This document shows positions 39,076-63,779 of a DNA stretch of 64,000 nucleotides, one piece after another; within the stretch, counting starts at the first letter, position 1; each line of letters begins with the position of its first letter. The DNA is from Isoetes taiwanensis. Taxonomy: Eukaryota; Streptophyta; Lycopodiopsida; Isoetales; Isoetaceae. The stretch lies in assembly GCA_021234155.1 (NCBI GenBank), contig JAJEKV010000001.1, forward strand, positions 26,401,189 to 26,465,188, given 5' to 3'. The position numbers were made by a program, and so were the translations under genes. The notes under the pieces are model-generated. The model worked only from the letters and a program-made list of their open reading frames with translations, was not told where the DNA came from and made no database searches.

Positions 39076-39468
39076 ACCAATGTACCAATGTACCAATACA
39101 GTTTGCCCGATCAGTTTGCGTAGATTTATAACATAAGATTATCAGTGGTTTTTTAATGTATTCGTAGGGAAAAGAGTAGAACGCTGACGGTGGCAGTTGA
39201 GTTAGGGCAGAAAGCGTATTCTTGTGTTAGGGGATGGTTTGATTTTGGATAAGAGCGGGCATGGCTGGTGCACATGTAGTAGCTGGGTAGCGGTTGGCCA
39301 ATCGGGCCTGTTGCAGGTGGCGAGGTAAGGGCGATGGTGATCTGCTGCGCCTGGAGCTGGGTCGTTTGCTTGGAAGTGGTTGGGTTGTTTCGGCAGCGGC
39401 TTGTAGGCCAACGTTCTTGTTCTTGTTCAGGTGAGACAAGCTTGTTCTTGTTTTATTTCTTTGGTACT

Positions 39469-39990
39469 ATGTCATTGAGGAGAGCAGCTCGGAGGCCTAG
39501 GGGTGCAGCAGGTGAGTCTGCTGTCCCTCCTGCTTGCCCACAGTTCAGTCCCTTAGGGCATGCTAGCTCAATGCATGCCGCTGGTAGGAGAAATTCCAGA
39601 CGTTCTGGCACGGCCATGCCGAACAGCTGCAGCTCTGGCCAAACCCAGCAGGCCCCTACCATGCCCAATTCATCCTCGTCTTGGGGTGCAATTGATGTGT
39701 CTGTGACATTAGGATTGTCAGGGGAGGATGTTCCGCTGAGTTTCTATGAAGCTTTGTGTTGTTTCTGTGATAGAAATTGCATAGCAGGTGCAGTTGCATT
39801 GGAAAGAGGATCATCAGCAGATCACCTGCATGTTCAGAGCGTTCTTAGAGGACGCTTTAGCTCTCCCAAAGCCATGAACGAAGCAATTAAAAAGGATTTT
39901 AATTGGCCATCCAAGCCTGCAGGCGTGGTCCTGGTGTGCAAGGCATTAAAAAACACCAGGCTCCATTGCTTCGAGGGGATGGTCGGTTAA
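39469..39990 (+). pseudogene. Replitron-type HUH (Rep) transposase, N-terminal part
   Basis: From ATG 39469 the protein starts MSLRRAARRPRG, a basic and possibly nuclear-targeting segment; the open frame extends upstream to 39334, but that part looks non-coding. After a Ser/Gln-rich linker comes the Rep-like fold: strand 1 (IDVSVTLGL) as motif I, then AVALERGSSADHLHVQSVLR, where HLH is the HUH metal-binding motif in the usual E-x-G-x4-HLHxQ setting. LRGRFSSPKAMNEAIKKDF and KALKNTRLHCFEGMVG follow. The frame stops at 39990. HUH enzymes nick single-stranded DNA through a Tyr and drive rolling-circle-type copying. Geminivirus-like Reps share the fold, but the sequence after this point does not carry a superfamily 3 helicase. 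Confidence 0.65.
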
Positions 39991-40555
39991 CATTGGCAAG
40001 GTACATTACATGTGCCATCTGCATAACATCAGTGAGACAATGATTCGGCAAGGGAAAGACCTGTATCTGCGTTGGGGCGCTGGAGACACAAAGGGACTTT
40101 GTGTGCTTGATAATCGTAACCTCTTGAACAAGGCCGCTCTCTATGTTTCATATCATGGTGGTCGCCGTGCCACACCAAGCCTGATTTTTACCTTGACCCG
40201 AATGATCAGGAGCGGGAAGTTCACTTTGTCCAGCAGTTGGTTGATCCCCTCTAACACTGCTCATGTGAATGAGCATAGGATTCGTGCTGCCTGGAGAGTT
40301 CTCCTAAATCCTGCCCGCTGCATGCCTTCAGATATTAGAACGATCTCGTATGGGTTGCCTGCTGGGTATGTGCCAGTGGAGAGGAATGGCCCAGGAAGGC
40401 GCAGATATTGGGATGATTCCATCCCTGCTGATGAGGCGGACGAGAACTTCACTGATTTGTGTGATCCTACATTCAGTCCAGAGATTGAGATAGCTGAAGA
40501 GGGTGCTGATTATATTCCAATTCATACGGGCGACCATACCTTGGCCGTTGGCTAG
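39976..40555 (+). pseudogene. Replitron-type transposase, C-terminal part (shifted frame)
   Basis: A second frame, open from about 39974, carries IGKVHYMCHLHNISETMIRQ, then GKDLYLRWGAGDTKG, NKAALYVSYHGGRR, FTLTRMIRSGKFTLSSSWLI, ARCMPSDIRTISYGLPAG and an acidic end. It continues directly from the N-terminal part after a frame shift in 39974-39992. A motif III Tyr region (a G-Y-C-x-K-D-like element in my memory of the family) would be expected exactly at the break. No helicase or DDE motifs are present, consistent with a Replitron and not a Helitron. The start at 40010 (MCHLHN) is only the first ATG after the break and not a real start. Confidence 0.6.
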
Positions 40556-40610
40556 CCCTGGTAGCTGCTATCACATTGTACAGTTGTCTTTACTTATTTC
40601 TTTTGTTCTT

Positions 40611-40674
40611 GCAGGTCTTGTGCAAGATGCCGTCATCGTGGCCGTCCGATGACGGCATCTTGCACAGGACCTGC
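40611..40674 (+). promoter_or_regulatory. Long perfect-type hairpin 3' of the HUH transposase (28-bp stem, 8-nt loop)
   Basis: The left arm 40611-40638 (gcaggtcttgtgcaagatgc, then cgtcatcg) pairs with the right arm 40647-40674 with a single mismatch. The loop is tggccgtc. It starts 55 bp after the transposase stop. Terminal or subterminal hairpins mark the ends of many HUH-type transposons, so this is a candidate 3' end signal. A transcript hairpin is the alternative. Confidence 0.85.
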
Positions 40675-40744
40675 GTGGATTCTATGGCGTGGAGGCCGAG
40701 TTCGTGAGTTACAGGCCGCCTCTGTAACCTGCATGTTATAGGTT

Positions 40745-43350
40745 TAAAAGAAAATAAAAATAAACAGTTAGTTCGAAATAGTTAAATGGAGTTAACACTA
40801 GAGTCGTCACATGATGTACCAGAAAAGGTGCATTTGCACTGTTTACTTTAAAATTCATATAAAATCAAAGGTTCAACAATCAGTCAAACCCTTTTTATAT
40901 GTTAATATATAGCAGTCACATTGCATGGGAAAAATATCTAAAAATCTATTGGTCCCCGTCAATGAGAGTTACACCTAGGTAAACGCCATGGGGTCAAGTC
41001 TGTTTTGCTTTATGTTTAGATAAAGTAAAACTGTCTCAGCAAGAAGATTTTTATGAATTTTTTCATTATTTCTGTATTTTTTTTCACGAGTTAGAGAATA
41101 GAATAGAATAGAATAGAATAGTTTTTTTAACGTTCACGGAGACCAATAGGTCATGGGACCCATACAATGGGCTAGTACAATCATTACACAAAAAAACACA
41201 AAAAACACAAAAAAAACACAAAAAAACACAAAAAACACAAAAAAAACTGCATCTCAATCCGAGATCTGAGAAGGGAGATAGGGTTGTTTGAATATGACAG
41301 GGTCAAAACTGTTGTCTGTCTTCTGTGAACCAATACTGGTTTCTAGAATGCTGTTCACAAATCAAATCTCCAACTTTTGTAAGGAAATGAATTTTGACCT
41401 AGAATTTTGAATACAAGTGATAGACAACTTGCTTTATCTAAGAAAAATGTCCATTAGCCTTAATGATGAAGTTTTGATTTTCTTTTATTTTTTCATTTAC
41501 AAGTGACTGATAACTTATGTCTATTATAGGAGTAAAATAATTCAAATTCATCCTCCAAAAAATCATATTATGAAAGGTTACCATAATATGGAATCATTCT
41601 AAAAAAAACACGTTAAAAAAACAAAGCTTTTGTTCACAAGAAATCAAGAAAGGTTTGTTTTCCTGGGACCATTACTGGTCCACCTTCTTTTTAAAATTAA
41701 GAACTTAATCGATTTCAGTTTGAATTATGGGGTATAAGCACCTCATGAACCACTCTATTCATTAAAAATAATCAATGCTCATTATCTTGAGGTTTAGAGT
41801 AAACTTTCTAGTGTCCATTCCAAGTTATCTGTTAGATTACGCATTCCATGGATTTCATAAACCTATGCATTGAATGGTGAACTCAAAACTTGTATTTTCA
41901 AACTTCTCAAGTTGTGGAAGTAATGCAAAAGAATGAAGAATAAATATAAAAAACTATAACTATGAAAAATAAAGTTAGAACTGCTACGTCTGTTTTCTAC
42001 TGTTGGTCCACATGGCTTAGGATCATTCAAAAAGCCAGAACATCATCATCTTAATCGGTTTTAAACTCGTCTTAAGAATACATAGATTCCATGTATAGCA
42101 TTCTATTTGAAAAAATTAGTTGATTGCTAGAATTGCCTTATTTAATGGTAATGTTGAAGCACAAGCAGATTGAACCTATATGAATCTCCACTTTCTTTAA
42201 AAATTGTGTTAGAGAAGGTAGAAAATCACCATATCATTGTATAAGTGACAAATGAACAATAAATATAATTGATAATGATACTTACGGAGATTTACTTCTA
42301 TACCCAATTCATCTAATTGTGGACCATAATGGTCCATGCCTATTTATATTCATGTCTTACATATAATAGTATGTTATTTTTAACATCAAATTGGAAATCT
42401 ATGTTGCCAATGAAGCTTAAGTCCATAAAAATTATAGTCTATCATGAAAGACAAGCTAAAGTTACTATTATTATACCTAAAATAGGAACTCCTAAGTAGC
42501 AAACACGTGTCCTAAGTTTATGATAGTAAAAAATAAGAAGATTTCATTGTATGTTTTGCACTAAGATGATACAAACTATATTTTGTACTTCTATCACATG
42601 TTTTGTCAATCATGAGTTGAAAAAGAATGCTATCTTGCTTTAAAATATGGCAAGCCTAAATACAAACTAGAAATGGTCCATTTCTATTTTAAATCAAATC
42701 TTCTACATAATGTGTTACTTTTAACATGAAATTCATGTCTATGTTGTGAAGCAAAGGTCGCATTCATAAAAAAAATATTGCCTATCATAAAAGATGAGTT
42801 TTTTGTACTATTACCTTAACTAAGCTCCAATTTTGTGTACTGACAACCACTTCTAAATATAAAGAATACATAGTTATTCACCATATCTAAGTTGATAAAA
42901 TTCTTTATTATGTAAATGCATGGAATGCATCATTTATTGCCCTTAGAAAGCTTATATATGAGTTTAGTTATACCATTTTAGTTCTATTTTTGTCCTAGAT
43001 TCTGTGTCAAATCTTCTTTCATGAAAATTGAGATCAAAGTGACTTATGGAGACTTCAAAAAATTACTGGATTACAGCTCTTAGAGTCGACAACTTATGGC
43101 CACAAATCTCACGTCAAAACTTGTTATAGTAAAGGAGAAACAATTCACAACCTCAAACAGCTTTTTTGAGCTAAATATGGTTTGACGACTTCATATAATG
43201 TCATCTAATAGCAGCGACACATGAAAACATGCAAATCAACATGTTTTATAATAAAACATCAATTACTTTCAATTTTAGAAACATTTGGATCCCTTTATGC
43301 TAGAAAGTTTAGAAAATGTAGTTCTGGCCTGGCGTAAAAACTGTTGAATT
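40745..43350. other. AT-rich intergenic DNA, no gene seen
   Basis: About 2.6 kb of AT-rich sequence with no open frame showing a domain. It contains a gaatagaatagaatag run (about 41097-41120) and an acacaaaaaaacacaaaaaa run (41190-41247). I found no long terminal repeats or transposon coding motifs. Confidence 0.5.
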
Positions 43351-45955: not shown

Positions 45956-46617
45956 TTGATGGGGGGTCCTATCTTTTTGATGGGGGGTAATATCACTGAC
46001 ATATATCATGCTCGTCTCAAAGTTATATGGCTGGGTCATATCTTTCTGTTGGGGGGAAAGGACGACAACTCAATGCCTTACGGTGGAGTTCTACATTCCA
46101 CGTGTCTTCTCACTTTCAATATCAGGTTGGTTCTGTCACCCATATGGAGGCTCTTGAGATATTCCAGCAACATCGACATATGGAAGGTGTTGCCCCTATG
46201 GGACACCTTGGCACTTCTTTGCACTTTGGAATTTCTTCATAAAAGGCCAAAGAAGTGCCCATTATCATACTCCTCCTCTCTATATACGATGGAAGCTATC
46301 AAGGGGGGGTTCCATATAGTTTTCCGTATTTCCAGAGGGTTTCCCCCCTTGTGGAATAAAATGGCACTCTTTCCATTAAGGGCCTATTGGGGTACCTCGA
46401 GTTGCCCCTTTTCAGCTTATCTAAAGGGGCCCATATACAAAGGGACACCCCTTAAACATTTACCCTCCTTTGTTTCCAAAGTCTTACCTCCCCTAATAAG
46501 GGAATCTCCTAGGTGCTGTCCCACTTGGTACCTGGTGAGAAGGTGTGCAGGGGGGGAACATAATTACATCCCTGTACTTAAGGTTGGAAGATTACCTATA
46601 GTCATAACCACTTCAGG
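45956..46617 (+). pseudogene. LINE 5' region / ORF1 remnant
   Basis: An open frame of 221 residues runs to 46621, overlapping the ORF2 start by the ATGA at 46618. I do not recognise the gag-like DUF4283 or zinc-knuckle domains typical of plant LINE ORF1, and its composition (Leu/Pro/Trp-rich) may not be coding. It occupies the place of ORF1 and the 5' UTR. Confidence 0.4.
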
Positions 46618-47178
46618 ATGATCATTGTTTCTTGGAATCTGCGTGGCATCAAAGGAGCACTCAAACGTGCTAGGGTATTAGCGGCAATTAGATCAATGAA
46701 GGCAGACATTGTCATGCTGCAGGAACATAGGCTCCCTGACTTTGAGGCTAGCTCTCTCGGCAGTTGGATGGGCAATGGCTATTCTTCCTTTAGCTGTGCA
46801 GCTTATGGAACTAAGGGAGGTACTTGTATCCTTTGGAAAGGTCAGGCTCAGAAAAACCAGTTCTCAGGACTGGGGGGCAGATGGCAGTCAGTTATATTTG
46901 AAAACAATAACTGTCAGTGGGGGCTTATTAATGTTTATGCCTCCAATAAACCTGCTGAGAGGGCAACTATGTGGAATAATATTGAGAGTTGGATTTCCCA
47001 GCACGAGAACGTGGTTGATAACTGGATACTTGGGGGTGACCTAAATATGACTGACACGTGGGATCAAAAAGTGGGTTTGCATAGGAATCTGCAGGAGGAG
47101 GAAGAACGTGCCTGGCTTTCTCTAATCAACGGTGCAGGCTTCTCTCTGGTTCCTCCTATCTGGCCAACAAATCTGTAG
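46618..47178 (+). pseudogene. LINE ORF2 endonuclease domain (EEP/APE type)
   Basis: Residues 1-187 show the apurinic-type endonuclease of LINEs. MIIVSWNLRGIKGALKRARV supplies the catalytic Asn, IVMLQEHRL the metal-binding Glu, GLINVYASN the central strand and WILGGDLNMT the GDxN motif. The frame stops at 47178. The end of the domain (about THWDHVP, the SDH-type motif with Ser replaced) is in another frame at 47184-47411. Shifts before 47178 and after 47370 compensate each other, since the RT resumes in the original frame. Confidence 0.9.
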
Positions 47179-47370
47179 AATTTATGGACAAGTCTTATGT
47201 TGAAGGAGATCTTGCATTCACTCATTGGGATCATGTTCCACAGAGGCTTACTCTTGAGGATATCCCCTCTGCCAGGAAATCAGGTTATATTCCTTTCAAG
47301 TTCAACGTCTCATGGTTAACCAAAGACGAGTTCTGCAACCCTTTTAAGGTTTTTCTCGGCTCACTAGAAA

Positions 47371-49752
47371 ATGGGGACAACCCCCCCCTCCATGAAGGCT
47401 TGGGCCCATAAGCTCAACCTCATGAAAGCTTGGATCAAGAAATGGGGAAGAAATAGGGCTCTGAGCTTCAAAAAGGAAAAGGATCTTGTCTACAATAGTC
47501 TCCGGATTATTAAGCAAGAACTCTTTAGTGACCCCTACAACCGAGATAAACACGCCTTGGAGGAGGAGCTCGAAAGCAAAGCTAAAGCTATAGAAGAGGA
47601 AGAAGCAAGGGGTGCTGCTATACGCTCCAAAACTAAATGGTATGCTGAACTTGATCATGAGAATTCTAAATGTTTTTCTAGATTGGCTGGGGCTAGATTA
47701 GCAGAAAATAGCATTACCTCTATCAAAGATCAAAATCAGGTCCTCCTAACAGATCAGGATGAAATCAAACGCTTTATTAGAGGAAGCTTCCAGGACCAAT
47801 TTAAAGAGGAACCGCTTCCATCCACTTACGGATCAGAAATTGCTAGATGGCTGCCAAAGGTTGACTGGGGGCACTTGGTTTCGGAGGCTGACAATCAATC
47901 CTTACTTCAACAGTTAGGGGATGAAGAAGTTTATAGAACTCTTTGCTCCTTGGCAGCTGGTAAATCCCCTGGTCCAGATGGATTTCCCCCGGAGTTTTTT
48001 AGGGAGTTTTGGGAATTCTTGGGGCAGGACTTCCTCAGGGCTATTAGGGGTGCATGGAACTCCCAGCTTTTACATCCTTCCTTGGCAGTTGGATTCATCA
48101 CTCTCGTCCCTAAAGTGTCAAGACCTCAGGTTATTAATGAATGGAGACCTATTGCTTTGACCAATGTCCTATATAAGGTCATCATGAAAGTTCTGGCTAA
48201 CCGTCTGAAACCTATCCTAAATAGGATTATTGGCAGAGAACAATCAGCCTTTCTCCCTGGAAGAAACATTCTGGATAATTACTTGGCAGCAAGGGCAGGG
48301 TTACATTGGTGTAGGGTATCAAGACAGAATTGTGTGCTGATAAAGATGGATTTCAGGAAGGCTTATGACTCTCTTAGGTGGGAGGCTCTGCAAGAGGTGA
48401 TGGATCATATGGGTTTCCATAGGCAGTTTGTTGATATCGCTATGGGCATGAACAAATTAGCATCAGCATCGGTGCTTGTTAATGGGGAACCATCCGGCCT
48501 CTTCGATCTCCGAAAAGGTATCAGACAAGGGTGCCCTTTGGCTCCTTACCTGTTTCTTATTATGGCAAATCTACTGACTAGGATGGTGAAACTCAAAATT
48601 TCAGAAGGTTCAATGAGTGGTCTCTCTCTATCAGGTGGTGCTGACGAGCTCACAATTATGCAATATGCTGACGACACCTTCATGTTCCTCAGATTTGATG
48701 ATGGTAGCTTTCAGGCATTTCGGGACGTTCTCCTGGCTTTTGAGATCGTATCCGGGATTGGTCTTAACCCTAACAAATGTTCCACTCTATGGGCACTAGA
48801 GACTGCGCTTGATCCTCGAGCTAGTATGCTAGGGTTTCCGGTGGTGAAAGTAGGTGAATCAATTACTCTTCTGGGCCTTCCACTTTCCTTATCTGATAAC
48901 ATCAAAGGACTCTGGTCGCCTCTGTTGGATCATCTTCGAAAGAAGGTTGCCCTATGGTCAGCCAAAGGTCTTGCAGTGTCTGGGCGTGTAACTGTGGCCA
49001 ATGCTGTCCTTGCTGCCTCTCACATTTTCTTCTCGTCTGTGATAGTGGCGCAGAAATTTGTGTACAATCAGATCCAGGTCATAATCAGGAAATTTATCTG
49101 GGGAGGTATGGCTAAGGTTGGCTGGTCAGAATTATGTAGAGATAAGAAAGAAGGTGGTCTTGGTTGCAAAGACCCCTTCTCTCAGGCTCAGGCATTAGCA
49201 GCCAGGTACGTATGGAGACTACTGCAAGGTGATACTTCCCCTGCCCTGGTATTTGTCAGATATTGGTTTCAACGTTGTAAACTCAAAAGGAAGCCTTCCC
49301 TCCCAAGGGACGATTTCGGAGCTGCCTTTAGAGACTTCAAGATAGCCCCAGGTACCTCACCTGTTATGAGAAGAATACTCCAAGCATGGGCGAAGGTGCT
49401 ACCATTATGCTCTCCTGCTAAGCTACCCCCACATGCTGGTAAGATCAATCCTTTCTGGAATATTAGGGTTTGGGGATCAAGGAATCTTCCTCTTGCACTT
49501 GTACACCCCCGGATCTATAGTAAGTGGAAAGTTCATGGCATCTCCAGGCTATCTCACCTTTGGGAGAATGGCAGATGGATCTCTTGGTCCAAACTAAAAA
49601 GGCTGGTCCCAAATGCTGGTGAGGGTGATAGGAAGATCCTAAGGGAAATCCAAGCTAATATCTCTGATCTTTCTGGACTGGAGGGTCCTGAAGAAAGATG
49701 GGAGTGTGTGGAATCCCCTTCCTACAAGGTAGCTAAGGTATATCGAGCTTAG
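47371..49752 (+). CDS. LINE ORF2 reverse transcriptase, long intact segment
   Basis: A 793-residue open frame. RT motifs in order: KSPGPDGFPPEFF (about residue 200), GFITLVPKV, INEWRPIALTNVLYKVIMKV, FLPGRNILDNYLAARAGLHW, LIKMDFRKAYDSLRW (motif A), GEPSGLFDLRKGIRQGCPLA (motif B), MQYADDTFMFL (YADD, motif C), then LGLPLS, GRVTVANAVLAASHIFF and KFIWGG. It copies its RNA at a nicked target in the nucleus. The frame closes at 49752 (KVYRA), before the C-terminal zinc-binding part. The catalytic core itself has no visible break; the enzyme as a whole lacks a continuous endonuclease. Confidence 0.93.
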   Translation: MGTTPPSMKAWAHKLNLMKAWIKKWGRNRALSFKKEKDLVYNSLRIIKQELFSDPYNRDKHALEEELESKAKAIEEEEARGAAIRSKTKWYAELDHENSKCFSRLAGARLAENSITSIKDQNQVLLTDQDEIKRFIRGSFQDQFKEEPLPSTYGSEIARWLPKVDWGHLVSEADNQSLLQQLGDEEVYRTLCSLAAGKSPGPDGFPPEFFREFWEFLGQDFLRAIRGAWNSQLLHPSLAVGFITLVPKVSRPQVINEWRPIALTNVLYKVIMKVLANRLKPILNRIIGREQSAFLPGRNILDNYLAARAGLHWCRVSRQNCVLIKMDFRKAYDSLRWEALQEVMDHMGFHRQFVDIAMGMNKLASASVLVNGEPSGLFDLRKGIRQGCPLAPYLFLIMANLLTRMVKLKISEGSMSGLSLSGGADELTIMQYADDTFMFLRFDDGSFQAFRDVLLAFEIVSGIGLNPNKCSTLWALETALDPRASMLGFPVVKVGESITLLGLPLSLSDNIKGLWSPLLDHLRKKVALWSAKGLAVSGRVTVANAVLAASHIFFSSVIVAQKFVYNQIQVIIRKFIWGGMAKVGWSELCRDKKEGGLGCKDPFSQAQALAARYVWRLLQGDTSPALVFVRYWFQRCKLKRKPSLPRDDFGAAFRDFKIAPGTSPVMRRILQAWAKVLPLCSPAKLPPHAGKINPFWNIRVWGSRNLPLALVHPRIYSKWKVHGISRLSHLWENGRWISWSKLKRLVPNAGEGDRKILREIQANISDLSGLEGPEERWECVESPSYKVAKVYRA

Positions 49753-51336: not shown

Positions 51337-51588
51337 ATGTTTCAAGATGGATACCCACCATTTCCTTACACACAAAGCCTTGAGGACTCTTTCTCTGAAG
51401 AAATACCTTCCTCCCAACCTAATGTGTTACCATCACCACTATTTCTTTTTCCAATATGGTCTCGTGCAGTTCGACAAAGGTTAATTGCAAGAAGATCACC
51501 CATTCCACCCATTCTTGCACCTCCCGCTTATTCTTGTCCACCTATTCTAGAAAACACTGAAAATGCTCAACCCTTAAACCCCACATGA
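51337..51588 (+). CDS. Unrecognised Pro/Ser-rich ORF next to a Harbinger transposase
   Basis: An 83-residue frame starts MFQDGYPPFPYTQSLEDSFS and ends just before the transposase fragment at 51585. No domain is recognised. It might be part of the second (Myb-like) Harbinger protein or of a displaced 5' region, but no SANT motif is visible. Confidence 0.2.
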   Translation: MFQDGYPPFPYTQSLEDSFSEEIPSSQPNVLPSPLFLFPIWSRAVRQRLIARRSPIPPILAPPAYSCPPILENTENAQPLNPT

Positions 51589-51953
51589 AATTTGAGTCTG
51601 GTGAAATAAGGAATTATTGTTTGCTTGATGATGCCGGATACACTTCAAGGCCTTATTTGTTAACCCCATTTATCAATAAAGGTTCTGACTTCAGTGCAAC
51701 TGACAAGCATTGGAATTCCATTCAATCAAGCACCAGGATGGCTGTTGAACGTGTTTTTGGCATATTGAAGGCACGATGTACAAAGACACATCTACAGCAT
51801 GTACCAATGGTTGTAGTTGCTTGCCTGGTCATGCACAACTTATGCATTATATATAATGAATCTTTTGATCAAACTTGGGTCAGTGAAGCAGCAATGGAGT
51901 TAGAGGAGGTGGGTAATGACGAAGAAGGTAATGAGGCGAGCGAAACATCATGA
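51585..51953 (+). pseudogene. PIF/Harbinger transposase, C-terminal DDE_4 fragment
   Basis: CLLDDAGYTSRPYLLTPFIN holds the second catalytic Asp region (D-x-G-Y) of the PIF/Harbinger nuclease. SSTRMAVERVFGILKARC holds the third acidic residue (VE..FG.LK), and ACLVMHNLCIIYNE is the conserved end. The acidic tail (EEVGNDEEGNEASETS) is usual for plant copies. The first Asp and the helix-turn-helix part are missing, so this is a 5'-truncated, inactive copy. Confidence 0.85.
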
Positions 51954-60022: not shown

Positions 60023-61164
60023 TTCAAAGTTGCTAGCACCCCAACGAGCAATGCGGTTTCAACAATCATGTGCTTACACTTGATCATGCAACACCCATTG
60101 ACTCCTAATGATGAATTAAGTATTCGTATCTATTGATCAAATGTTGCATGATATAATGAATATCCATATTCCATTTGGAGATATTATGATTCAAATAAAT
60201 ATTATTTGTTATTAGGCTGTAAGTCACCAATCAATCTTGCATCAAAAGACCATATAAGCACACGTCTCTACCTAAGCTGGCAATGCCGGGCACATGTTTA
60301 CTAGAAGAATAGGACATTGAAGGGTAGATCCAACAACATAAGTTTCCTATGATTGGACACATATCTATTTACTTAAAAGGTTTTTGCCCTTTCTCGCTCA
60401 TGTCGGAGTGATGCCAGAAAAAGCGTGAGCAGCGTGAGTTTTGAAACTAGAAAACGCGTTTTCCGGCCTATTTGCCTATTTTTTGGTATTTTTAGCCTTT
60501 TCCGACATTTTTTTTCTCTCATCAGTGGCCGCCATTACGCTAGACATGCCCAAGCTACTCTATTTATGTATTTAGCATGCAATAAAAATAAGCTTCTTTA
60601 GTTATCCGAGGCCATTCCCTACTACCAGGACCAAAATGTGCAGATCATATTATTTAGGGAAAGTTACTGAAATGCCCTTGCAAAATGGACAAATTACACA
60701 ATTGCCCCTATCAAATCGGAAATCCCCAAACTACCCTTCGGGCAGGCAACGGGCAGGCAACGGGCAGAACGAATATTGCCGATAACAGAAACGAGGGAAA
60801 TTTTCTGGATTTGGCGGTGCTGTTGGAGGAGACGTCCAGCGATTTAGTGTCGTCCAGCCTCCCCATACAAGGCAGCGATTTGTAAGGTAAGGAGAAGCAC
60901 AGAATAGATCGATTCTGGCAATTCATGCATGCATTCTGTGTTTCTTCTTGTTCCAAAGCCTCTATGTGTTTCTTCTTGTTCCAAAGCCTCTATATGTTTC
61001 TTCTTCTTCTGAATCTATGGCAAATTCTGCTTCCATAAGTTCCTTCTTTCAAAGCTCAAAGCTCAACTTTCTTTTCTTTTCATGAATTTCTTTGTATCTT
61101 TAGTACTGGCTATGAGAATGTTAACTGATTCTGTGTCCAGCACAGAAAGGTTCTATGTCCAGCT

Positions 61165-61635
61165 ATGGAACTGTGTAAGGGTGCTAAATTTGATTCAATT
61201 GAAGAATGCAAGGCTGCAGTACGAGATCAAGCCGTCAAAGATCATGTGGAATTATCAGTGATTAAGTCTGATCGTTCTAGATACAGAGTAAAGTGTGCTG
61301 CTGAAGGTTGTGCATGGATGATCCACGCTTCTAAACTTCCGGATAGTGCTGAGGTTACAATTAAGAGCATAGGTGGTGAGCATTCTTGTGGTGGGGTTAA
61401 TCAGAGAAACAATAAGGAAGCCAACTCAAAGTGGGTGACGGAAAAATATCTTGGGAAGTTCCTTGAGCACCAAAGTTATAAACCTTCAGACCTTGTTGCT
61501 GATGTCCGAAGAGAGCATGGAGTAGAGATAAGCTACCGTGTTGCATGGTTAGCAAAGGAAAATGCAATGGCTGAACTTCACGGTTCACATGAAGAAGCTT
61601 ATCAGCGATTGAATGACTACTGCTCTAGCGATTGA
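61165..61635 (+). pseudogene. MULE (MuDR-like) transposase N-terminal DNA-binding part, unit 1
   Basis: 156 residues with the plant MuDR zinc-binding region: FDSIEECKAAVRDQAVKDHV, SDRSRYRVKCAAEGCAWMIH (C-x4-C) and GGEHSCGG (HxC). Then comes NSKWVTEKYLGKFLEHQSY, and the linker to the catalytic domain, HEEAYQRLNDYC. In family members the DDE nuclease starts right after this point. Here the frame ends in a 23-bp duplication and the nuclease is absent. A good 3' splice site (tgtccag) lies about 20 bp upstream of the ATG. Confidence 0.9.
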
Positions 61636-61720
61636 ATGATTACTGCTCTAGGTAGATGATGCGATCAAAGTTGCTACTGCTCGTGCACGTTATTACAGGG
61701 TTCTTCCATCCACTGAATTT

Positions 61721-62110
61721 ATGTTCAAGATTGTAACTGCAAAACATGAGCATGTGGTCGATGTGCAAGCTGGTACATGTTCTTGCTTAAGATGGCAGAA
61801 GTCTGGAATTCCTTGTGCCCATGCTGTTGCATCAATTCTATTCAAGAAACAGCAAGTGCAGATGTACACCTATGAGGCATATCGGTTGTGCGTGTACTAT
61901 GCAACTTACAAAGGGGTTATCTCTCCAGTGATTCATAGTGGTGAAGTTGCTGGAGCCACAGATATGCTTCCTCCACAGACATCTCGATTGCCAGGGCGAC
62001 CTAAGAAGAGGGGAATAAGATCGTCTACTGAGGATGATAAGAAAGCAGTAAAATGTTCAAGATGCAAAAGTGTCGGTCACAACCGCAGAACTTGCAGGAG
62101 TACCAATTGA
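61721..62110 (+). pseudogene. MULE transposase C-terminal SWIM and zinc-knuckle part, unit 1
   Basis: The coding line begins at about 61652 (VDDAIKVATARARYYRVLPS) and includes this frame. A SWIM zinc finger, CSCLRWQKSGIPCAHA (CxC...CxH), is followed by a GRPKKRGIRSS basic motif and a CCHC knuckle, CSRCKSVGHNRRTC. About 300 residues of DDE nuclease expected between this and the N-terminal part are missing. The product could still bind nucleic acid if spliced to the upstream part, but could not transpose. Confidence 0.9.
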
Positions 62111-62833
62111 AATTGCAGGTATTTTATGGTTTGTGACTTCTTTTTTGATTTATGAGATTTCTTACTATTACATGCTGAACATGAATATTGGAGCAGTATC
62201 TATCTTACGAAGACTAGCATTGTTAATTAAGTAGTTCTTTAAGACTAGCATTGTTAATTAAGTAGTTCTTTCTGTAGCATTTCTTGCAATGGAGCAGGTA
62301 ACAGTTCGAAGTGAAGAACATTCATGGGAAAGTTACTGAAATGCCCTTGCAAAATGGGCAAATTACACAATTGCCCCTATCAAATCGAAAATCCCCAAAC
62401 TACCCTTCGGGCAGGCAAGGGGCAGGCAACGGGCAGAACGAATATTGCCGATAACAGAAACGAGGGAAATTTTCTGGATTTGGCGGTGCTGTTGGAGGAG
62501 ACGTCCAGCGATTTAGTGCCGTCCAGCCTCCCCATACAAGGCAGCGATTTGTAAGGTAAGGAGAAGCACAGAATAGATCGATTCTGGCAATTCATGCATG
62601 CATTCTGTGTTTCTTCTTGTTCCAAAGCCTCTATGTGTTTCTTCTTGTTCCAAAGCCTCTATATGTTTCTTCTTCTTCTGAATCTATGGCAAATTCTGCT
62701 TCCATAAGTTCCTTCTTTCAAAGCTCAAAGCTCAACTTTCTTTTCTTTTCATGAATTTCTTTGTATCTTTAGTACTGGCTATGAGAATGTTAACTGATTC
62801 TGTGTCCAGCACAGAAAAGTTCTATGTCCAGCT

Positions 62834-63304
62834 ATGGAACTGTGTAAGGGTGCTAAATTTGATTCAATTGAAGAATGCAAGGCTGCAGTACGAGATCAAG
62901 CCGTCAAAGATCATGTGGAATTATCAGTGATTAAGTCTGATCGTTCTAGATACAGAGTAAAGTGTGCTGCTGAAGGTTGTGCATGGATGATCCACGCTTC
63001 TAAACTTCCGGATAGTGCTGAGGTTACAATTAAGAGCATAGGTGGTGAGCATTCTTGTGGTGGGGTTAATCAGAGAAACAATAAGGAAGCCAACTCAAAG
63101 TGGGTGACGGAAAAATATCTTGGGAAGTTCCTTGAGCACCAAAGTTATAAACCTTCAGACCTTGTTGCTGATGTCCGAAGAGAGCATGGAGTAGAGATAA
63201 GCTACCGTGTTGCATGGTTAGCAAAGGAAAATGCAATGGCTGAACTTCACGGTTCACATGAAGAAGCTTATCAGCGATTGAATGACTACTGCTCTAGCGA
63301 TTGA
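62834..63304 (+). pseudogene. MULE transposase N-terminal part, unit 2
   Basis: The predicted residues are identical to those of the unit 1 copy over all 156 positions, including the zinc-binding Cys/His set and the premature end after LNDYC. The shared internal deletion shows that loss of the nuclease came before the tandem amplification. Confidence 0.9.
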
Positions 63305-63389
63305 ATGATTACTGCTCTAGGTAGATGATGCGATCAAAGTTGCTACTGCTCGTGCACGTTATTACAGGGTTCTTCCATCCACTGAATTT

Positions 63390-63779
63390 ATGTTCAAGAT
63401 TGTAACTGCAAAACATGAGCATGTGGTCGATGTGCAAGCTGGTACATGTTCTTGCTTAAGATGGCAGAAGTCTGGAATTCCTTGTGCCCATGCTGTTGCA
63501 TCAATTCTATTCAAGAAACAGCAAGTGCAGATGTACACCTATGAGGCATATCGGTTGTGCGTGTACTATGCAACTTACAAAGGGGTTATCTCTCCAGTGA
63601 TTCATAGTGGTGAAGTTGCTGCAGCCACAGATATGCTTCCTCCACAGACATCTCGATTGCCAGGGCGACCTAAGAAGAGGGGAATAAGATCGTCTACTGA
63701 GGATGATAAGAAAGCAGTAAAATGTTCAAGATGCAAAAGTGTCGGTCACAACCGCAGAACTTGCAGGAGTACCAATTGA
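63390..63779 (+). pseudogene. MULE transposase C-terminal part, unit 2
   Basis: Same SWIM and CCHC fingers as unit 1. One residue differs (EVAGATD in unit 1, EVAAATD here). Conservation of both open frames between units is expected from recent copying and is not evidence for selection. Confidence 0.9.

Follow-up and report, generated by a model that had tools for sequence, protein, structure and literature searches.

A truncated, dead Replitron and its relatives with two open reading frames under selection in Isoetes taiwanensis

The locus at positions 39469–40555 of the window, by which we mean the whole analysed stretch of 64,000 nucleotides from Isoetes taiwanensis, raises the question which kind of element left two overlapping reading frames there and whether it still possesses a terminus of its own. 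The first-pass annotation had described it as the relic of a Replitron-type HUH transposase in a plant nuclear genome, lacking a helicase or superfamily 3 (SF3) ATPase and with a possible terminal hairpin; a profile search of the two frames and a search of the genome for further copies with intact ORFs had been proposed. The described motifs were found where they had been placed: VSVTLGL, E-x-G (as ERG) and HLHVQ lie in frame 39469–39990, and HNIS...GKDLY together with the C-terminal part lies in the shifted frame 39950–40555. The proposed profile search revealed a match of piece 1 to the Pfam family Replitron_HUH (PF21859) with an E-value of 1.9e-9 and 38.3 bits, above the cut-off of 28.5, and the same profile scored 71.5 bits over positions 1–127 of 128 with two relatives from the same genome, L010 and L017. 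Replitron_C (PF21860) stayed below its cut-off of 27, with 16 bits in piece 2 at about 40190–40321 and 14.9–16.1 bits across the window, L010 and L017. No other Pfam family was matched at E ≤ 1 by either window piece. Positions 39469–40555 thus contain a single Replitron HUH transposase split into two pieces, and the assignment to a Replitron-type relic in a plant nuclear genome is borne out by the Pfam match and by the relatives in the plant's own genome.

Structure and wider protein searches gave little beyond the profile match. A fold model of the window piece alone, calculated from the single sequence, had a mean pLDDT of 46.4, and Foldseek returned no match for it at E ≤ 0.001. Among 5.8 billion predicted proteins, a set assumed to be poor in plants, no homologue at E ≤ 0.001 was detected with window piece 2 (71 candidates) or ORF1 of L010 (3527 candidates) as queries. 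Searches of the PDB with one sequence and two profiles yielded chance-like matches only, and the best PHROGs match of ORF1 had an E-value of 0.003 over 34 residues.

The limits 39469 and 40555 are those of the ORFs; alignment with relatives extends the remnant from about 39096 to 40616 (Table 1). Nucleotide comparison with 40 fetched copies showed homology over about 39101–40616, ending at 40616 in the window copy and continuing for a further 0.9–1.1 kb in fuller relatives. The start was set at 39096 because the relatives read ATAAT immediately before the homology begins, where the window reads ATACA. Over 1527 alignment columns, the window copy and L010 are 96.7% identical at the DNA level. 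Relative to L010, the window has one 11-base deletion near 39989, which removed the codon of the catalytic tyrosine, introduced a stop and shifted the frame. As this deletion destroys both the tyrosine codon and the frame, and about 1 kb of the 3′ part is missing, we regard the window copy as dead.

Table 1. Features of the Replitron remnant and of its immediate surroundings in the window.
Feature	Position	Strand	Evidence or remark
Replitron remnant	39096..40616	+	from the 5′ end through the leader and the disrupted HUH transposase gene into the spacer ahead of ORF2; lacks about 1 kb at the 3′ side
Element 5′ terminus	39096..39155	+	ATACA in the window versus ATAAT in 13/14 other listed copies and TTAAT in 1
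Candidate 5′ splice site CAG/GTGAGAC (cut after CAG), upstream of ORF1	39428..39437	+	exact in 9/12 listed clade-A copies
ORF1 piece 1, with the HUH domain behind a variable N-terminus	39469..39990	+	domain match 39700–39987, PF21859
HUH motif His-Leu-His	39823..39831	+	sequence; also in 8/8 relatives of alignment A3
11-base deletion site	39989..39990	+	pairwise alignment with L010
ORF1 piece 2: transposase C-terminal part	39989..40555 (frame 39950–40555)	+	98% identical to L010
T-rich tract and 3′ splice-acceptor-like TTGCAG (precedes ORF2 in relatives)	40596..40614	+	ORF2 lost in the window
28-bp hairpin at the break	40611..40674	unstranded	derived by fold-back from the 3′ subterminal sequence of the family
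Unrelated-repeat fragment adjoining the hairpin	40676..40798	+	other copies share about 310–470 bases

The window copy is one of many. A first look at the genome gave 3515 candidate places, and all 150 that were scored matched piece 2 with E ≤ 5.5e-88, which sets the number of relatives at 150 or more. Forty of these 150 places were fetched, beginning with the top of the list and continuing mostly with open frames, so that the counts within this sample give no rate. The further copies with open frames that had been looked for do exist: 15 of the 40 carry an ORF1 frame of at least 339 aa with the tyrosine motif, and 6 of these 15 additionally carry a second frame, ORF2, of at least 116 aa (29 and 9 instead of 15 and 6 under a looser rule). 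By pattern, the tyrosine motif is present in 33/40 and the HUH motif in 29/40 fetched copies. A tree of the 40 copies has three main groups, with L032 apart from them; the window copy clusters with L010 and L012 (97/98) in the largest one. Several old lineages are likely, since between groups dS could in most cases not be calculated, as happens under saturation. The nearest others to L043 share 98% and 97% identity on the same contig and at most 95% elsewhere (40 of 3745 candidates scored), and these values do not point to a very recent burst around L043.

A single catalytic tyrosine located behind the HUH motif is characteristic of Replitrons. The HUH, glutamate and tyrosine motifs are all present in each of the eight open relatives of alignment A3, the tyrosine motif reading GYCMKD. 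For ORF1, dS was usable in 12 of 45 pairs, and dN/dS was 0.07–0.15 in 11 of them; the sole exception was the pair L033–L034 with 0.79. Inside this genome, selection acts on ORF1 and, as described below, also on ORF2.

The termini of the family were placed by comparison of copies. ATAAT prevails at the 5′ end (Table 1) and forms the 3′ end in 15/16 listed copies, L015 being the exception; L044 and L045 within this list share one duplicated flank. The relatives are thus bordered by direct repeats, and the window copy, having lost its 3′ end and reading ATACA at its 5′ end, is not. Many copies contain a repeated terminal unit consisting of ATAAT, 10–20 bases and again ATAAT. Terminal inverted repeats were not found in the three copies tested, in each of which the ends agree in only 7–8 of 20 bases. 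The full length is 2.31–2.71 kb for the 13 clade-A copies whose two ends were located and 2.43–3.20 kb for three copies of other clades. Near the 3′ end, a GGGTC/GACCC stem of five pairs is unbroken in 12/12 aligned ends, and a GCCGTC/GACGGC stem located about 30–35 columns before the end has single pairs broken in up to 3/12. Covariation in this 3′ structure is weak, with two-sided changes in 2/31 pairs and an unfavourable term of +1.63. Comparison of eight copies from three clades revealed an identity of 0.54–0.68 in the first 120 bases (0.68 in the first 60), 0.44–0.57 in the last 140 bases or so and 0.00–0.36 between ORF2 and the 3′ end; the main part of ORF1 and ORF2 are likewise of high identity.

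Two arrangements at other loci concern neighbouring ends. In L021 (1652–6035, joined with L050) two Replitrons stand tail to tail with their 3′ ends 25 bases apart and are 90.7% alike where compared, and in L024 an inverted fragment lies about 131 bases past the 3′ end. Fold-back duplication was considered as the origin of both arrangements and rejected: the partner in L024 is nearer to L017 (91.5%) than to L024 itself (83%), and the likeness in the L021 pair does not reach into the flank, so that separate insertions are more likely in both cases.

Target sites were examined by joining the flanks of 11 insertions, five of which were searched in the genome. Junction-spanning empty sites were found for 5/5 of these, altogether 17 loci, of which 13 were aligned edge by edge; the other four, all sites of L010, read like L061. 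ATA stands at the junction in 10/13 aligned loci, and the three without it (L066–L068) account for three of the four empty sites of L019. The empty sites of L014 contain a single ATAAT (3/4 exactly, the fourth with one additional A), and two ATAAT are present when the site is occupied. For the four other insertions, occupied and empty sites share at most ATA or ATAA. In L010, L011 and L019 the occupied site differs from the empty one over about 4–8 bases beyond the 3′ ATAAT, which leaves the precise position of the 3′ end uncertain. The empty sites thus define ATA or ATAAT as the target core; at the 3′ side, cutting is either imprecise or extends into another terminal unit. An empty-like unit within the tandem flank of L042 was too diverged to be read.

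These termini bear on the terminal hairpin that the first-pass annotation had considered possible. A hairpin of 28 bp is indeed present at 40611–40674, with −35.4 kcal/mol compared with −10.7 kcal/mol for shuffled sequences (z −10.85), but it is located at the break, whereas the family ends in direct ATAAT repeats and its conserved 3′ stem-loops are located, in full copies, about 1 kb downstream. Its right arm (40640–40667, minus strand) is identical in 28/28 positions to the 3′ subterminal sequence of L013 and aligns with that of L010 and L012 over 34 bases at 91%, and its left arm (40619–40638, plus strand) agrees with L013 in 20/20 positions. The strong fold and its derivation from the family's own 3′ subterminal sequence are what one would expect if it served as the functional terminal hairpin of the window copy or of a short derivative. 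Against this, the element body stops at 40616, two bases beyond the splice-acceptor-like site in front of ORF2, no ATAAT end stands beside the hairpin, and a fragment of another repeat directly follows it. Moreover, no second copy of the hairpin appeared in a genome search with 40605–40800 (40 of 71 candidates scored, common words skipped): the hairpin part was matched only in the window, and 39 matches elsewhere begin at or beyond 40676, within a 123-base piece of an unrelated repeat. A terminal function of the hairpin is therefore very improbable. The simplest reading would be a scar of repair or template switching, in which the body was broken at 40616, the element's own 3′ hairpin was folded back and foreign filler followed; the hairpin begins with six bases, GCAGGT, that are part of the element body, an overlap as would be expected of a microhomology. 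At gathering scores, no Rfam family was matched in the window. Close to the relic, at 40946–41149, two 17-base arms in inverted orientation, separated by 170 bases and complementary at 88%, may belong to a small MITE-like element.

The part missing from the window copy contains ORF2. In fuller copies it encodes about 133 aa (130–136 aa in ten complete examples; 3134–3532 in L010) and starts 64–100 bases past the ORF1 stop where both could be placed. Among ten uninterrupted copies chosen from the 40, dN/dS was 0.06–0.22 in the 30 of 45 pairs with usable dS, several of which are near saturation. In close pairs changes fall mainly at third positions, in 37/47 cases for L010–L013 and 56/77 for L010–L018; the bias is weaker in distant pairs such as L010–L020 (77/155). 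The choice of open frames could lower dN/dS somewhat; it would not produce the third-position pattern. ORF2 is under purifying selection, with 47/136 invariant columns in the alignment of the ten copies. ORF2 had no match in Pfam or PHROGs and no credible one in the PDB, where a recA hit with an E-value of 0.00019 is confined to 24 residues within repeated fusion chains.

The position of ORF2 suggests how it may be expressed. Its ATG follows 5–7 bases behind a T-rich tract and TTGCAGG in 16/18 listed relatives and TTGTAGG in 2. The donor-like CAG/GTGAGAC in front of ORF1 is exact in 9/12 listed clade-A copies. Because ORF2 stands directly behind the conserved acceptor-like site, removal of ORF1 by splicing is predicted, and splicing from leader to acceptor would probably yield ORF2. 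The model is weakened by the other clades, in which only 4/10 listed copies show a plausible donor by pattern. One may tentatively go further and propose that Isoetes Replitrons are two-gene transposons, in which the unreported ORF2 product of about 133 aa is made by alternative splicing with ORF1 as the intron and is required for transposition, either binding the ends or acting as a partner of the nuclease; we consider this possible, though rather doubtful. A second Replitron gene is not mentioned in the listed titles and abstract openings of papers on Replitrons, HUH endonucleases and Isoetes transposons, which is no proof of its absence from print. The proposed nesting would have a parallel in tnpA and tnpD of En/Spm, where one gene lies within the intron of another; the En/Spm transposase is unrelated, and in the Isoetes family splicing is only predicted.

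Two other sources of an HUH domain have to be weighed against a Replitron. A RepHel fragment of a Helitron from which the helicase has been lost would have the HUH motif, a eukaryotic host and AT-rich empty sites, and Helitrons as eukaryotic HUH transposons also resemble the Isoetes family in their AT target and 3′ hairpin. However, no Helitron family, and thus no Helitron Rep, was matched in Pfam at E ≤ 1 by the window pieces, L010 or L017. A Helitron combines Rep with a Pif1-type helicase, and L010, the fullest copy, contains beside ORF1 no ORF large enough for such a helicase; direct ATAAT ends and the Replitron_HUH score of 71.5 bits likewise separate the two, and we judge a Helitron origin very improbable. 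The statement that neither helicase nor SF3 ATPase is present also holds with respect to Pfam, where no such family was matched. An endogenised Rep from a virus of the geminivirus or CRESS type would share the order of HUH motifs, but at E ≤ 1 none of the same four sequences matched a viral Rep or an SF3 helicase family, and dispersed copies with defined ends, empty sites and two ORFs under selection fit a transposon, which leaves a viral source with a negligible chance. The IS200/IS605 Y1 transposons are alike in outline, having a single-tyrosine HUH enzyme, hairpins near the ends and a short target motif kept at the flank; Y1_Tnp was not matched at E ≤ 1 by the window pieces, L010 or L017, and the Isoetes family is eukaryotic and not a member of this group.

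We therefore return to the Replitrons, for which Craig 2023 (PNAS) is reportedly the paper cited. The features excerpted from PMC10741241 include direct terminal repeats of 5–11 bp, no terminal inverted repeats, target site duplications of 2–8 bp and a length of 0.9–4 kb, and lycophytes are listed there among the hosts. According to these excerpts, the Isoetes family agrees in its HUH domain as identified by Pfam, its direct terminal repeats, the lack of inverted repeats, a size within 0.9–4 kb and a lycophyte host, and it adds a conserved ORF2 behind an acceptor-like site and a repeated 3′ terminal unit. It is very likely that the window copy is a dead, 3′-truncated member of a Replitron family of I. 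taiwanensis. This judgement applies to the explanation as a whole, from profile membership, ends, empty sites, break and selection on both ORFs as observed to the single-strand mechanism, splicing and repair origin of the hairpin as inferred.

HUH enzymes are established to cut a single strand, to form a covalent joint between tyrosine and DNA and to rejoin the strand at the target. Such a single-strand mechanism fits the direct ATAAT ends, the lack of inverted repeats, the stem-loops near the ends and the empty sites with ATA or ATAAT. ORF1 of the fuller copies encodes a single-tyrosine HUH endonuclease that would nick ATAAT-type ends with the help of the subterminal hairpins. The enzyme would stay bound through its tyrosine while the element is carried as single-stranded DNA, and joining into an ATA/ATAAT target would leave ATAAT at both ends without inverted repeats. 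In the window copy, a small deletion took the catalytic tyrosine, and the 3′ part was presumably lost in a rearrangement that left the fold-back hairpin.

Replitrons and their occurrence in lycophytes were already known, and the window copy adds one dead member. The value lies in the family, a large and diverse lycophyte Replitron population in which both genes occur as open copies, the ends are defined and a target motif is visible in empty sites. The conserved second gene with its testable splicing model is the part that merits more work, and the family offers a concrete route to the study of Replitron cleavage, Replitron movement and the production of a second product.

Elsewhere, the window also carries reverse transcriptase and other transposase genes. 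A LINE-type element with long open frames, an endonuclease domain followed by reverse transcriptase, occupies 46582–49749. A DDE_Tnp_4 transposase fragment, which we take to be of the Harbinger type, is located at 51561–51950. The ORFs at 61129–62107 and 62798–63776 are tandem copies with a period of 1669 bases, identical in their first 90 listed residues, and the MuDR transposase domain was recognised in the first of them.
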